Of a stretch of DNA of 64,000 nucleotides, positions 17,119 through 37,944 are shown piece after piece. The stretch covers positions 1 through 64,000 of the forward strand of contig CACYZM010000017.1 of assembly GCA_902778855.1 (NCBI GenBank), read 5' to 3'. Below the pieces are notes generated by a model. That model had not been told where the DNA came from, ran no database searches, and saw only the letters and a list, made by a program, of their open reading frames with translations. Source of the stretch: an uncultured Bacteroidia bacterium. Lineage in GTDB: Bacteria > Bacteroidota > Bacteroidia > Bacteroidales > UBA932. The translations under genes and the position numbers were made by a program. How positions within the stretch are numbered: the first letter of the stretch is position 1; every line of letters starts with the position of its first letter.

Positions 17119-17757
17119 ATGAACATCTACAATGTGATCATTCTGGACGAGAGCGGGAGCATGTCGTCCATCTACAAGGAAACGCTGCAGAGCATCAACG
17201 AGGTGCTGGGCGGGATTCGGAAGAATCAGGAGGAGCACCCCGAGCAGCGGCACAATGCAACCCTAGTGACCTTCGAGGGCAATGGCATCAGCGGCGTCAA
17301 GACGCGGCGCGACCGCGTGCCCATCGAGAAGATCGACAATCTCACGGAGAAAGACTACCGCCCGGGCGGCTGCACCCCGCTTTACGATGCGATGGGCCAG
17401 ACGCTCAACCGCCTGGAAGGCCTGGTGGCGGAAGGCGACAAAGTGATGGCCACGATCATTACCGACGGATATGAGAATGCCTCGGAAGAGTACTCCGGCA
17501 AGACCGTCAAGGCACTCGTCTCGCGACTGCGCGAGAAGGGCTGGGTATTCGCCTACATCGGCGCCAACCAGGACGCGGTGGAAGTGGCGCGCGACCTGAA
17601 TATCGCCAACGCCCTGAACTACGACGCCACGCCGGAAGGGATGGTATCGATGCGCTTCAGCTTCAAGAAGGCGAACCGCAAGATGGCCGAATTCGTGGCC
17701 CGCTGCGCAGAACCCGAAATGTACGAGACGCTGTTCGAAGACGATGACAAGGCGTAG
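17119..17757 (+). CDS. von Willebrand factor A domain protein
   Basis: 212 aa, almost entirely one vWA domain with a complete metal-ion-dependent adhesion site: DESGSM near 10-15, T in GGCTPLYDAMG, and D in TDGYENAS. It has no signal peptide, so it is cytoplasmic. It is clearly related to the N-terminal half of the vWA-macro protein at 36027-37079: both share LDESGSM, TPLYDAMG, TDGYENAS and GWVF-YIGANQD. The last 40 residues are helical and end acidic (EDDDKA). Function unknown; cytoplasmic vWA proteins often bind partner proteins. Confidence 0.85.
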   Translation: MNIYNVIILDESGSMSSIYKETLQSINEVLGGIRKNQEEHPEQRHNATLVTFEGNGISGVKTRRDRVPIEKIDNLTEKDYRPGGCTPLYDAMGQTLNRLEGLVAEGDKVMATIITDGYENASEEYSGKTVKALVSRLREKGWVFAYIGANQDAVEVARDLNIANALNYDATPEGMVSMRFSFKKANRKMAEFVARCAEPEMYETLFEDDDKA

Positions 17758-17803: not shown

Positions 17804-19021
17804 ATGCGAAACGAAGAAGACCGTCCGATCCACCTTCCCGTCCCCTTCCTGAAGGAAGGCACAGTCCTTTTTGTCAGCCCCGACGCCGCGGACGCGGCCA
17901 CGCCCATGCCCCCGTCCGCGGATGCTGACGCGGACGCATCCGCGTCCGCGCCCGCGCCCGGCCGGCGGCCCGACAGGAAGGGCTGTCTGTCATTGACCGA
18001 CCTCGCCGCTTCGCTCTCCCCCGAGCTCCGCGCCTACTTCTTCCCGGGCGTCGAGGCCGACCTGTCGGCTGCTGCACTGTACCAGCGCCTACAGGAGCTC
18101 GCCGGCCTCGGCGACTCAGCCAACGCCGCCGCTGATGGCCTCGGCGGCCAGCCCGGCCTCCTCTACCGGCGGGACGGCACACTCTACTTCCACCCGCTGC
18201 CCGAGGGCATACGGCCCGACGCCGAGGCCGCGGGCGCGGCCGCTCTGCCGAGCCGCCCGCCGCAGTCCGAGCCCGCACTTTCGGGCCGCCCGCCTCGCTC
18301 CGTGGCCGAGAAATCCCGGCTCCGCGGCTTCCGCCGCAGCCGGGCCCCGCGAATCGAAGCGATGCCCTGCGAAGAGCCGCTAATCGACGAGGAATCGATT
18401 CTTTTTTCGGATACTGAGGAGAACGAGCGCAACCAGGTCGCGGCGCCGCAGGAGGCCCTCGGGAAAGAAGCCCCGGAGGCCGCTCGAGAGACAGCCCGGG
18501 AAACGGCCCGGGAGGAGGCGCAGGATCCCCGCGTCCAGGCCATCCTCGATGCCTGGGAAAAGATCGAACGCGAGTTCGGCATAACGATAGAAGACCTTCA
18601 GGTACTCCTCGGTTATCAGGTGAAACTCAGCCGCTTGAGCATCACCACGTCCAACCGGATTTTCCTAACCGACTTCGACAATCGCGAAGTCAAAATGGAC
18701 GACCTCACCAAAGCCCTCTACTTCTTCTTCCTCCGCCACCCGGAAGGCGCCCGCCTCAAGGAACTCCAGGACCACGAACCCGAAATCCTCCGCATCTACT
18801 CCGGCATCACCGGCCGCGACGACCCCGCCAAAATCCGCGAAAGCGTCCACAACCTCCTCGACCCCTTCGCCAACAACCTCAACGTCTCCCTCTCCCGCAT
18901 CAAAAAAGCCTTCCGCGACGTCGTCGGCGACCGCATCGCCCGCTTCTACTACATCTCCGGCTCCCCCGCCCAACCCCGCACCCTCCCCCTCGACCGCGAC
19001 CTCGTCCTCTGGGCCCATTGA
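17804..19021 (+). CDS. Hypothetical protein with conserved C-terminal domain
   Basis: 405 aa. The middle (about 30-55 and 140-240) is low-complexity Ala/Asp/Ser/Pro/Arg sequence that looks like a flexible linker. The last 150 residues look globular and conserved: KLSRLSITTSNRIFLTDFD, then LTKALYFFFLRHPEGARLKEL, IYSGITGRDDPAKI and RFYYISG. I have seen similar tails in other Bacteroidota proteins of unknown role, but this is from memory only. No signal peptide or catalytic motif is evident. Element B copy 2 starts 21 bp after its stop. Confidence 0.75.
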   Translation: MRNEEDRPIHLPVPFLKEGTVLFVSPDAADAATPMPPSADADADASASAPAPGRRPDRKGCLSLTDLAASLSPELRAYFFPGVEADLSAAALYQRLQELAGLGDSANAAADGLGGQPGLLYRRDGTLYFHPLPEGIRPDAEAAGAAALPSRPPQSEPALSGRPPRSVAEKSRLRGFRRSRAPRIEAMPCEEPLIDEESILFSDTEENERNQVAAPQEALGKEAPEAARETARETAREEAQDPRVQAILDAWEKIEREFGITIEDLQVLLGYQVKLSRLSITTSNRIFLTDFDNREVKMDDLTKALYFFFLRHPEGARLKELQDHEPEILRIYSGITGRDDPAKIRESVHNLLDPFANNLNVSLSRIKKAFRDVVGDRIARFYYISGSPAQPRTLPLDRDLVLWAH

Positions 19022-35340: not shown

Positions 35341-35703
35341 ATGAAGAAGGAGTTTGTGAGACAGGTAGTCGTATTTGAGGATCACTTCAAGGAGTTCAGA
35401 AAGACACTAAACAAAGACACGCTCAAAAAGCTATATCAGGTGCTAACCTTAATAATGCTGGTGGAAGAAATTCCAGCGAAGTTTCTGAGAGCAATCGTGG
35501 GAAGAAAAGGACTCTTTGAGATACGAATAGAACACGGAAACGACATCTATCGGGTATTCTGCTGCTTTGATGAAGACAAACTGTTAATCCTGTTCAATGG
35601 TTTCAAAAAGAAGACGCAAAAGACACCCGCAGAGCAATTGGATAAAGCAGAAGCCCTGATGAAGAAGTATTATGACCAGAAAAGCAACCGAACAAATGGA
35701 TAA
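35341..35703 (+). CDS. RelE/HigB-type toxin
   Basis: 120 aa, of the phage-derived Gp49/HigB group. Visible blocks are IPAKFLRAIVGRKGLFEIRIEHGNDIYRVFCCFDEDKLLILFNGFKKKTQKTP, the usual core of a ribosome-dependent mRNA interferase, with basic residues R and K in the strands. The C terminus is helical (AEALMKKYYDQKS). It is encoded before its antitoxin, the order typical of higBA, and overlaps it by 32 bp. Confidence 0.9.
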   Translation: MKKEFVRQVVVFEDHFKEFRKTLNKDTLKKLYQVLTLIMLVEEIPAKFLRAIVGRKGLFEIRIEHGNDIYRVFCCFDEDKLLILFNGFKKKTQKTPAEQLDKAEALMKKYYDQKSNRTNG

Positions 35704-36007
35704 GAAAGACCTCAAAAAGATGAATCTGACCCCCATCGAAGACCTCATTGAAGAGGACTTCGGTGCCGTGGGGACGGCGGAACGGGACCAGTTCGAGATG
35801 GAGTGCGATGTCTTCGTAATCGGCGAGCAGTTGAAGAATGAGCGCCTCAAAGCCGGTCTCACGCAAGAACAGTTGGCAGAGAAGATCGGCACCAAGAAGA
35901 GTTTCATCTCCCGAGTGGAGAGAGGCCACGCCGACATTCAGCTCTCTACCCTCGCCAAGTTATTTCGAGGGCTGGGACGCCAAGTACGCATACGAGTCCT
36001 CTTCTAG
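35672..36007 (+). CDS. HigA-type antitoxin (XRE helix-turn-helix)
   Basis: 111 aa. The C-terminal half is an XRE-family helix-turn-helix: LKNERLKAGLTQEQLAEKIGTKKSFISRVERGHADIQLSTLAKLFRGLG (about 54-102). The N-terminal 45 residues are probably the toxin-binding part. It should bind both HigB and the higBA promoter. A start at 35672 gives a 32-bp overlap with the toxin; another ATG at 35696 overlaps the toxin stop as ATGGATAA and is equally plausible. Confidence 0.88.
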   Translation: MTRKATEQMDKKDLKKMNLTPIEDLIEEDFGAVGTAERDQFEMECDVFVIGEQLKNERLKAGLTQEQLAEKIGTKKSFISRVERGHADIQLSTLAKLFRGLGRQVRIRVLF

Positions 36008-36026: not shown

Positions 36027-37079
36027 CTACCCCAGCACCTCCCAAAACTCCTTCGGCAGAAACACATTCGGCAGATTGTAGGCGAGGCCGAAGAGCGGGG
36101 CGATTTGTTGGGCGGTGAAGCCGGCATTGCCGCAGCCGATGGGGGTGACGAGGAAAGTCTTTTCGGGATGTATGTCGGCGAAGCGGATGAATTCGTCGAC
36201 TTCGCGGGCGATAGTTTCGAGGGAGGCGCCCATCGTGGGGATGGCGTAGCTGCGGCCTTGGAGACCACGGCCCTGGCCGTAGACGGCGCCGAAGCGTTTG
36301 AGGGCGAGGCGGGCGGCGCCGCCGTCGTGGTGACCGGCCGCGTTGCTGCCGAAGACGAAGATCTGGCCGTCGCGGAGGGAATCGATACGTGGCGGCGTCA
36401 CACGGGTCAGGGCCTGGCGCGAAGCGAAGAAGTCGTCTTCAAAGTCGATCCGTTCGCCCGATGCCTGGGCTCGTCGCACTTTCTTATAGTATTCTCGGCG
36501 GCTGGAGTGGACCCGGTCCCACATCACCGATGAGCCCTCGATGGTGGCTTTGAAATCCATCGTGCACTTGATACCCAGGCCTTTGGCAGTCCGCGCGGAG
36601 TCCTGATTGGCTCCGATATAGGTGAAGACCCAGCCCTTGGCGGAGAGACTGTCCACCAGTTCTTTGATCATGGCGCCCGTGTAGTGGCGCGATGCGTTCT
36701 CATAGCCGTCGGTGACGATGGTAACCAGCACGTGGTCCCCTTCCTTCACCACTTTCTGCAGACGGGTGATGGACTCCCCCATCGCGTCGTAAAGCGGAGT
36801 CATTCCGTACGGGTTGTACTGTTCCGGTTTGACGTCCTGCACGTTTTCGATCTTCTGGTTGTCGATGATCAGCCGTACGTCGGGGCGGTCGCCGCCCTGG
36901 TCGAACGTGACGAAGCTGAGCATCTGGTTGTCGGCGGGGTTCTCTTTCTGCGCCTGACGGATGGTCTGGATGGTTTCATTGACACCGGTAAGCGCCTGTT
37001 CTCGAATGTCGTCCATGGACCCGCTTTCGTCCAGGACAATGAGATTGTAGATACGCGTTTCTGCAGCTGTCTGGTTCAT
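36027..37079 (-). CDS. vWA - macro-like domain fusion protein
   Basis: 350 aa. Residues about 10-190 are a vWA domain with a complete MIDAS (LDESGSM; T in MTPLYDAMG; D in TDGYENAS), close to the separate vWA protein at 17119-17757. Residues about 235-345 match a macro-like ADP-ribose-binding fold seen in phage proteins: IFVFGSNAAGHHDGGAARLALKRFGAVYGQGRGLQGRSYAIPTM, then TFLVTPIGCGNAGFTAQQIAPLF. No signal peptide. It is divergent from a NUDIX-type regulator; TGTGTA palindromes and both promoters lie in the 139-bp gap. The role is unknown; a link to NAD or ADP-ribose is inferred from the macro domain and the NUDIX neighbour. Confidence 0.85.
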   Translation of the reverse strand: MNQTAAETRIYNLIVLDESGSMDDIREQALTGVNETIQTIRQAQKENPADNQMLSFVTFDQGGDRPDVRLIIDNQKIENVQDVKPEQYNPYGMTPLYDAMGESITRLQKVVKEGDHVLVTIVTDGYENASRHYTGAMIKELVDSLSAKGWVFTYIGANQDSARTAKGLGIKCTMDFKATIEGSSVMWDRVHSSRREYYKKVRRAQASGERIDFEDDFFASRQALTRVTPPRIDSLRDGQIFVFGSNAAGHHDGGAARLALKRFGAVYGQGRGLQGRSYAIPTMGASLETIAREVDEFIRFADIHPEKTFLVTPIGCGNAGFTAQQIAPLFGLAYNLPNVFLPKEFWEVLG

Positions 37080-37092
37080 AACGATAAGGTTT

Positions 37093-37111
37093 TTGTGTAA
37101 TTTTTACGCAA
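37093..37111. promoter_or_regulatory. Palindromic operator O1
   Basis: TTGTGTAATTTTTACGCAA: arms TTGTGTAA and TTACGCAA, 7 of 8 positions paired. It overlaps the minus -7 box TATCTTTG (37109-37116) of the vWA-macro gene, so binding here should repress that gene. Confidence 0.5.
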
Positions 37112-37116
37112 AGATA
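37109..37116 (-). promoter_or_regulatory. -7 box of the vWA-macro gene
   Basis: The minus strand reads TATCTTTG, 29 bp before the start codon. Confidence 0.6.
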
Positions 37117-37145
37117 AGGGGCAAATTTCTATTCTCCAAATTTTT

Positions 37146-37162
37146 TGTGTAAAAAATACACA
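37146..37162. promoter_or_regulatory. Palindromic operator O2
   Basis: TGTGTA-AAAAA-TACACA, a perfect palindrome with a 5-bp spacer. It lies just upstream of the likely -33 region (TTG, 37165-37171) of the NUDIX regulator gene and shares the TGTGTA half-site with O1. Confidence 0.5.
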
Positions 37163-37191
37163 TATTGCTTGCACGCGCGCCTGAATTACCT

Positions 37192-37199
37192 TATCTTTG
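37192..37199 (+). promoter_or_regulatory. -7 box of the NUDIX regulator gene
   Basis: TATCTTTG, 19 bp before the ATG at 37219. It excludes the in-frame start at 37165. Confidence 0.65.
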
Positions 37200-37218
37200 C
37201 AGAAACAAAGCAGAACAA

Positions 37219-37944
37219 ATGGCGACAAAAGGAAAATACATTTACGAGTATCCGCATCCGGCCGTAACAGCGGACTGCGTGGTTTTCGGATACGACGGCA
37301 AGGAGCTCAAGGTGCTCCTGATCAAGCGCGGTAAGGAGCCGGAAGCCAGCGCCACAGCATATGTCGGCGAGTGGGCGTTGCCGGGCGGATTTCTCGAAGT
37401 GGAGAAAGATAAAACCATCGCACACACGGCCGCGCGCGAACTGAAAGAGGAGACGGGGCTCCGGCTCACCGTCAAGGATTTCAAGGAAGTCGGTACCTTC
37501 AGCGACATCCATCGCGACCCGCGCGAGCGCGTGATCACCATCGCACACTATGCCCTGGTTAAGCTCGCCCAGGTTGAGGCCAGCACCGATGCCGACCGGG
37601 CCGACTGGTTCAGTTGGAACGATATCCCCCACCTGGCCTTCGACCACGACAAGATCCTCCGCGTTGCCTTCTCGCGCCTCAAGCGCGACATCCACTTCGA
37701 GCCCGTGGGCTTCGACCTCCTACCCGAGGTCTTTACCCTGCCCCAGCTCCAGAACCTCTACGAATCCATCCTCGAAGTGAAATTCGACCGCCGCAACTTC
37801 GCCAACAAGATGAAGCACTATGCAATCCTCACCGAAGTCGAATCCCCCACACCCCGTCGCGGTACCCGCACCCCCGTCCTTTACCGCTTCTACAAAGAGA
37901 ACTACGACCGCCTGAAAGGAAGCGGTTTTCAACTGGAGTTCTAA
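37219..37944 (+). CDS. NUDIX-type transcriptional regulator (NrtR/AraR-like)
   Basis: 241 aa. The N-terminal NUDIX domain has ALPGGFLEVEKDKTIAHTAARELKEETGL: the REL-KEETGL end of the box is kept, but two extra residues stand between G and R and the first glutamate is lost, so catalysis is doubtful. The C-terminal 90 residues (EVFTLPQLQNLYESILEVKFDRRNFANKMKHYAIL ... RTPVLYRFYKENYDRL) are the winged helix of NrtR/AraR-like regulators, which bind an ADP-ribose or sugar ligand instead of cleaving it. It probably controls itself and the divergent vWA-macro gene through O1 and O2; this is inferred from position. Confidence 0.88.
   Translation: MATKGKYIYEYPHPAVTADCVVFGYDGKELKVLLIKRGKEPEASATAYVGEWALPGGFLEVEKDKTIAHTAARELKEETGLRLTVKDFKEVGTFSDIHRDPRERVITIAHYALVKLAQVEASTDADRADWFSWNDIPHLAFDHDKILRVAFSRLKRDIHFEPVGFDLLPEVFTLPQLQNLYESILEVKFDRRNFANKMKHYAILTEVESPTPRRGTRTPVLYRFYKENYDRLKGSGFQLEF

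Follow-up and report, generated by a model that had tools for sequence, protein, structure and literature searches.

Two genes transcribed away from each other, on contig CACYZM010000017.1 of an uncultured Bacteroidia bacterium, raise the question of what signal might control them and what the larger one might do in response. They lie in the stretch of 64,000 nucleotides analysed here, referred to throughout as the window, and a preliminary description had proposed that they form a self-contained switch responding to an ADP-ribose-type (ADPr) signal. We have examined the two products, the promoters and candidate operators between them, and the related loci of other Bacteroidales, which are cited by our own handles (G035, L187 and the like) where they need to be told apart.

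The two divergent genes and their products

The leftward gene, vWA-macro (36027-37079, minus strand, 350 amino acids), is the predicted output gene of the switch and is divergent, as first described, from a 241-amino-acid NUDIX-winged-helix regulator (37219-37944, plus strand). The regulator probably begins with the ATG at 37219, and the TTG at 37165 given by the open reading frame tool sits upstream of its -7 box.

The N-terminal part of vWA-macro (approximately residues 1-205; 36465-37079, minus strand) is a vWA domain identified by fold matches and alignment: it matches the Pfam VWA model weakly (E 3e-4, below cut-off), and Foldseek aligns the full-length AlphaFold model (pLDDT 89) with many vWA domains. 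The MIDAS motif is intact (D17-x-S19-x-S21, T94 and D124), and of 25 aligned vWA relatives practically all retain its DxSxS, T and D. The C-terminal 120 or so residues (approximately residues 228-350; 36030-36398, minus strand) match NCBIfam A1S_2505 (NF049995, E 2e-40) and PHROG 2072. Modelled alone with AlphaFold (AF2, pLDDT 90.2), this part finds TARG1 as its best PDB match (Z 11.5), with Thermus TTHA0132 (Z 11.4) and DarG (Z 11.1) close behind, and among its top 50 Foldseek/VIA matches nearly every one is a macro domain or a design based on one, with VIA Z values of about 10-11.5. There is no match to the Pfam macro model in the C-terminal part, and a macro-domain profile run against PDB sequences gave chance matches only, so that the assignment rests on fold; by its predicted model the domain has a macro fold and belongs to the macro domain superfamily, in agreement with the macro-like domain fused to vWA that had been described. 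A motif comparison by eye suggests that the catalytic Lys and Asp of TARG1 are absent from this domain, and hydrolysis of ADP-ribose by it is thus not assured.

We note that A1S_2505-type macro domains also stand alone in phages, 405 phage genome records (for example MK637516.2) giving a match; among the matches listed, most are annotated as hypothetical and one as macro. The window also holds a second, stand-alone vWA gene (17119-17757, plus strand), approximately 44% identical to the vWA part of vWA-macro and followed by an open reading frame of about 405 amino acids (17804-19021); a similar vWA gene adjoins a 320-400-amino-acid gene at four other loci (L071, L073, L077 and L078).

The regulator matches both NrtR_WHD (PF21906, E 3e-18) and NUDIX (PF00293, E 2e-16) above cut-off, which bears out its description as a NUDIX-winged-helix protein and places it in the NrtR family. 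Its closest PDB relative by phmmer is BtAraR (5bs6, E 2e-39), SoNrtR (3gz5) also scoring high, and PADLOC gives a weak match of the Nudix region to PDC-S07 and nothing more. The NUDIX box had been called degenerate, suited to sensing only, on account of two extra residues. The extra residues are there (GGFLEVEKDKTIAHTAARELKEETGL), as they are in SoNrtR, and the regulator's clade combines this insertion with loss of the first glutamate position. The functional reading is doubtful, because the metal-binding catalytic core REUxEE is intact in the window regulator and in 93 of 94 related regulators, and 66 of the 94 have the full canonical box GX5EX7REUXEEXGU. Published NrtR and AraR regulators have an impaired Nudix box (PMC4666351; MsNrtR, PMC6800001), which this subfamily does not share; since impairment is typical of these families rather than required, membership in the NrtR family is based on fold and winged helix. 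With its REUxEE intact, the regulator may also hydrolyse its inducer and in this way reset the switch.

Paired operators around the vWA-macro promoter

Two TGTGTA palindromes between the genes had been read as shared operators, and both are real. Operator 1 (TGTGTAATTTTTACGCA, 37094-37110) overlaps the start region of vWA-macro and, as claimed, the end of its -7 box (TATCTTTG, 37109-37116, minus strand; -33 TTG at 37139-37137, spacing 20). Operator 2 (TGTGTAAAAAATACACA, 37146-37162) lies 52 bp from operator 1, between the -33 elements of the two genes, the regulator promoter occupying 37169-37199 on the plus strand (-33 TTG at 37169-37171, -7 box TATCTTTG at 37192-37199). The sandwiched promoter in the window is that of vWA-macro, and palindromic operators are found at both the regulator's own and its target promoter, as is characteristic of the NrtR family. 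Across the 2.4-Mb genome TGTGTAN5TACACA occurs once, and a broader operator consensus with at most one mismatch recovers the two operators plus three G+C-rich, chance-like matches (one match in the reversed control); the two operators are the only convincing copies. They have the core GTGTnA-N3-TnACAC in common with the BtAraR site AGTGTTACTTTTACACC, an operator that was crystallised as a DNA complex and gel-shifted (PMC4666351), and residues R191, R192 and N193 of the regulator correspond to K179, R180 and N181, with which BtAraR contacts DNA. Homology to BtAraR thus supports binding of the regulator to its predicted operators.

The operator motif was initially derived from about a dozen loci and then tested on 80 Bacteroidales regulator loci. 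These are the best 80 of 521, with similarity of the regulator as the sole basis of choice, so that the counts describe the near subfamily. Among these best 80 loci, 44 strict operator sites fall in the 14 kb upstream of regulators and 22 in 839 kb of other sequence, and 37 pairs of operators are spaced 51-56 bp apart, a TAxxTTTG -7 box abutting one operator at a fixed offset in all except one of the pairs (36 of 37). At divergent loci (the window, G035, G093, G085 and others) the promoter between the operators is directed at vWA-macro or an ADP-ribosylglycohydrolase (ARG) gene, opposite to the regulator; at operon-type loci the regulator and the genes after it are transcribed from this promoter. 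In two relatives (G097 and G005) vWA-macro lies on a different contig from the regulator, yet two operators 52 bp apart still surround its upstream -7 box, which indicates that the operator goes with the target gene and not merely with the regulator. Of the extra operator matches in one genome, G007, one (C93) lies directly at the end of a long open reading frame of helicase-like type and was set aside as looking like chance.

Ligand pocket and gene neighbours

Ligand and DNA-contact residues were read off phmmer alignments to SoNrtR and BtAraR, the numbering being shifted by 3, as the residues named in the paper confirm. R37 of the window regulator corresponds to SoNrtR Arg41 and BtAraR Arg34, R99 to BtAraR Arg86, and R102 to SoNrtR Arg98, and all three are invariant in 14 aligned regulators. 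Two further ADPr contacts of SoNrtR, Lys76 and Asn43, are not kept (E78 and K39). As judged from these alignments, the pocket points to ADPr rather than to a pentose. The closeness of the nearest solved structure, the arabinose-responsive BtAraR, and of its nearly identical operator might suggest that the regulator is a sugar sensor like AraR and XylR and that its macro and ARG neighbourhood is coincidental. We regard this as very improbable: the invariant R102 stands where AraR has Gly89 in place of the ADPr-binding arginine, the neighbouring genes are ADPr genes and not sugar genes, and the operator stays with vWA-macro even when the regulator is elsewhere.

Genes in related loci were called by a simple longest-ORF method, and partners were sought by tblastn with few queries, so that the partner counts are lower bounds. 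Fused vWA-macro relatives occur in G035 (76%), G097 (69%), G005 (51%) and G093 (40%), and at L187, L190, L192, L236 and L256; the divergent pair of regulator and vWA-macro, whose conservation had been an issue from the outset, is seen in the window genome, G035, G093, L187 and L192. Within 2 kb of the regulator, at least 48 of the best 80 of 521 loci carry ARG, this macro domain or microbial PARG, and at least 58 carry some ADPr- or NAD-linked gene, counting also vWA, SIR2, DUF1810 and TIR; no such partner was recognised within that distance at 22 of the 80. ARG (31 loci) and macro (29) lead, followed by DUF1810 (14), vWA (10), SIR2 (5), PARG (2) and TIR (2), each a minimum for the same best 80 loci, and partner matches drop sharply beyond 2 kb. 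The arrangements vary: in G015 an ARG-macro fusion adjoins both vWA and the regulator, in G005 ARG comes after vWA-macro, in G085 a regulator of 85% identity diverges from ARG, G130 has a regulator together with PARG and macro, and G031 has a regulator-vWA pair with a divergent ARG. ARG is in the same neighbourhood in four relatives (G005, G028, G031 and G085). Together with the invariant equivalents of SoNrtR Arg41 and Arg98, these neighbours lend support to the ADP-ribose-type signal proposed at the outset. The unit is self-contained in this genome, with its only two operators; elsewhere that description fails, since ARG, PARG, SIR2, DUF1810 and TIR genes are partners and the regulator probably acts on vWA-macro from another contig in some genomes.

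DUF1810 is a repeated partner of the regulator subfamily (L212, L230 and others), which suggests that this uncharacterised family has a role linked to ADP-ribose or NAD. At two loci (L189 and L191) a gene for a TIR-domain protein of about 240 amino acids lies directly downstream of close regulators. The toxin-antitoxin pair said to adjoin the window unit is present, as a Gp49/RelE-type toxin and HTH antitoxin (35341-35703 and 35672-36007, plus strand) convergent towards vWA-macro; it was found in none of the other fetched loci, and we have dropped any link to the switch and consider the pair incidental.

The neighbours bear on two further explanations. One is that the regulator is an NAD-homeostasis NrtR and that vWA-macro assists NAD recycling and not the repair of macromolecules; known NrtRs control NAD synthesis genes (PMC6800001), and in one relative (G007) a regulator homologue accompanies the NAD-salvage genes for nicotinate phosphoribosyltransferase and an isochorismatase-fold, nicotinamidase-like protein. 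We consider this unlikely, as the sole good operators of the window genome are at vWA-macro and the Bacteroidales partners (best 80 of 521 loci) are mostly ARG and macro rather than NAD biosynthesis genes. The other makes vWA-macro the toxic or growth-arresting output of a defence module, produced on an ADPr signal of phage infection, and not a repair factor. TIR and SIR2 genes are occasional partners, and predicted ARG systems sometimes carry effectors (PMC9503650). This appears somewhat less likely still, for PADLOC gives no match to vWA-macro, the protein lacks a nuclease, NADase or pore domain, and a macro domain that stands alone in hundreds of phages fits an ADPr reader or eraser.

A candidate ADP-ribose switch among known systems

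The reading that we favour, to which we assign a probability of roughly two in three, is a two-operator repressor that sandwiches the vWA-macro promoter, is released by ADP-ribose or a close derivative, and so induces a reader or eraser of ADP-ribosylation. Dimers of the NrtR-family repressor would bind the two 17-bp operators 52 bp apart and, from operator 1 over the -7 end and start region and operator 2 just upstream of the -33 element, would keep vWA-macro off, with operator 2 also touching the regulator's own promoter. Free ADP-ribose or a close derivative would rise through NAD cleavage, turnover of ADP-ribosylation, TIR or ART activity, or phage attack; entry of such a ligand into the NUDIX pocket would release the DNA and allow vWA-macro to be made. 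The macro domain would then bind or remove ADP-ribose on macromolecules, and the MIDAS-bearing vWA domain might act as an adaptor that recruits or holds the modified protein, a chaperone or adaptor role taken from the literature (PMC9503650). Hydrolysis of the inducer by the regulator may then reset the switch. We advance more tentatively, and consider rather doubtful, the extended proposal of a catalytic transcription factor that both senses and hydrolyses ADP-ribose, in a self-resetting Bacteroidales ADPr-stress switch. The output of such a switch, vWA-macro here and ARG, PARG, SIR2 or DUF1810 in relatives, would read or remove ADP-ribose marks on host macromolecules, for example during phage attack.

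The locus offers a compact, testable case of the predicted ADP-ribose counter-systems, with one repressor, two operators of conserved spacing and one output protein. If ADP-ribose does release the repressor, the Bacteroidales genes behind the cassette (ARG, PARG, DUF1810 and SIR2) would form a defined ADPr-response regulon, and both DUF1810 and the phage A1S_2505 macro family would gain a likely biochemical setting.

Comparison with known systems places the unit among several of them. With NrtR (SoNrtR, and MsNrtR, PMC6800001) the regulator shares the Nudix and winged-helix domains, the arginines of an ADPr-type pocket and a predicted repressor architecture; NrtR controls NAD biosynthesis and has an impaired box, whereas the window regulator keeps REUxEE and has ADPr-processing genes as predicted targets. 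It resembles BtAraR (PMC4666351) in fold, DNA-contact residues and operator core, but BtAraR is an arabinose-binding protein without catalytic residues, and its nucleotide pocket is filled (Gly89, Phe36 and Leu67). The macro domain of vWA-macro is like TARG1 and DarG in its predicted fold and in an IGCG-type loop motif, at an identity of 9-16%. Literature searches that paired NrtR with vWA or with ADP-ribosylglycohydrolase, or DUF1810 with ADP-ribosylation, yielded nothing specific apart from PMC9503650. There Iyer et al. (2022, section 3.8) predict ARG-centred ADP-ribose counter-systems that are induced by ADPr and combine a Nudix or WYL regulator with vWA chaperones, macro domains and phosphatases; the lineages concerned are actinobacteria, planctomycetes and proteobacteria. 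As in those systems, a Nudix-HTH regulator, vWA, macro, ARG and DSP-type phosphatases recur as neighbours here, and the window unit itself has the Nudix-HTH regulator with a vWA and macro partner; the single ARG of its genome is on another contig, and for want of a linked ARG the unit is a variant and not a strict member. It differs from the ARG-centred systems further in its occurrence in Bacteroidales, in the fusion of vWA to an A1S_2505-type macro domain, in its defined paired operators and in the intact core of its Nudix box.
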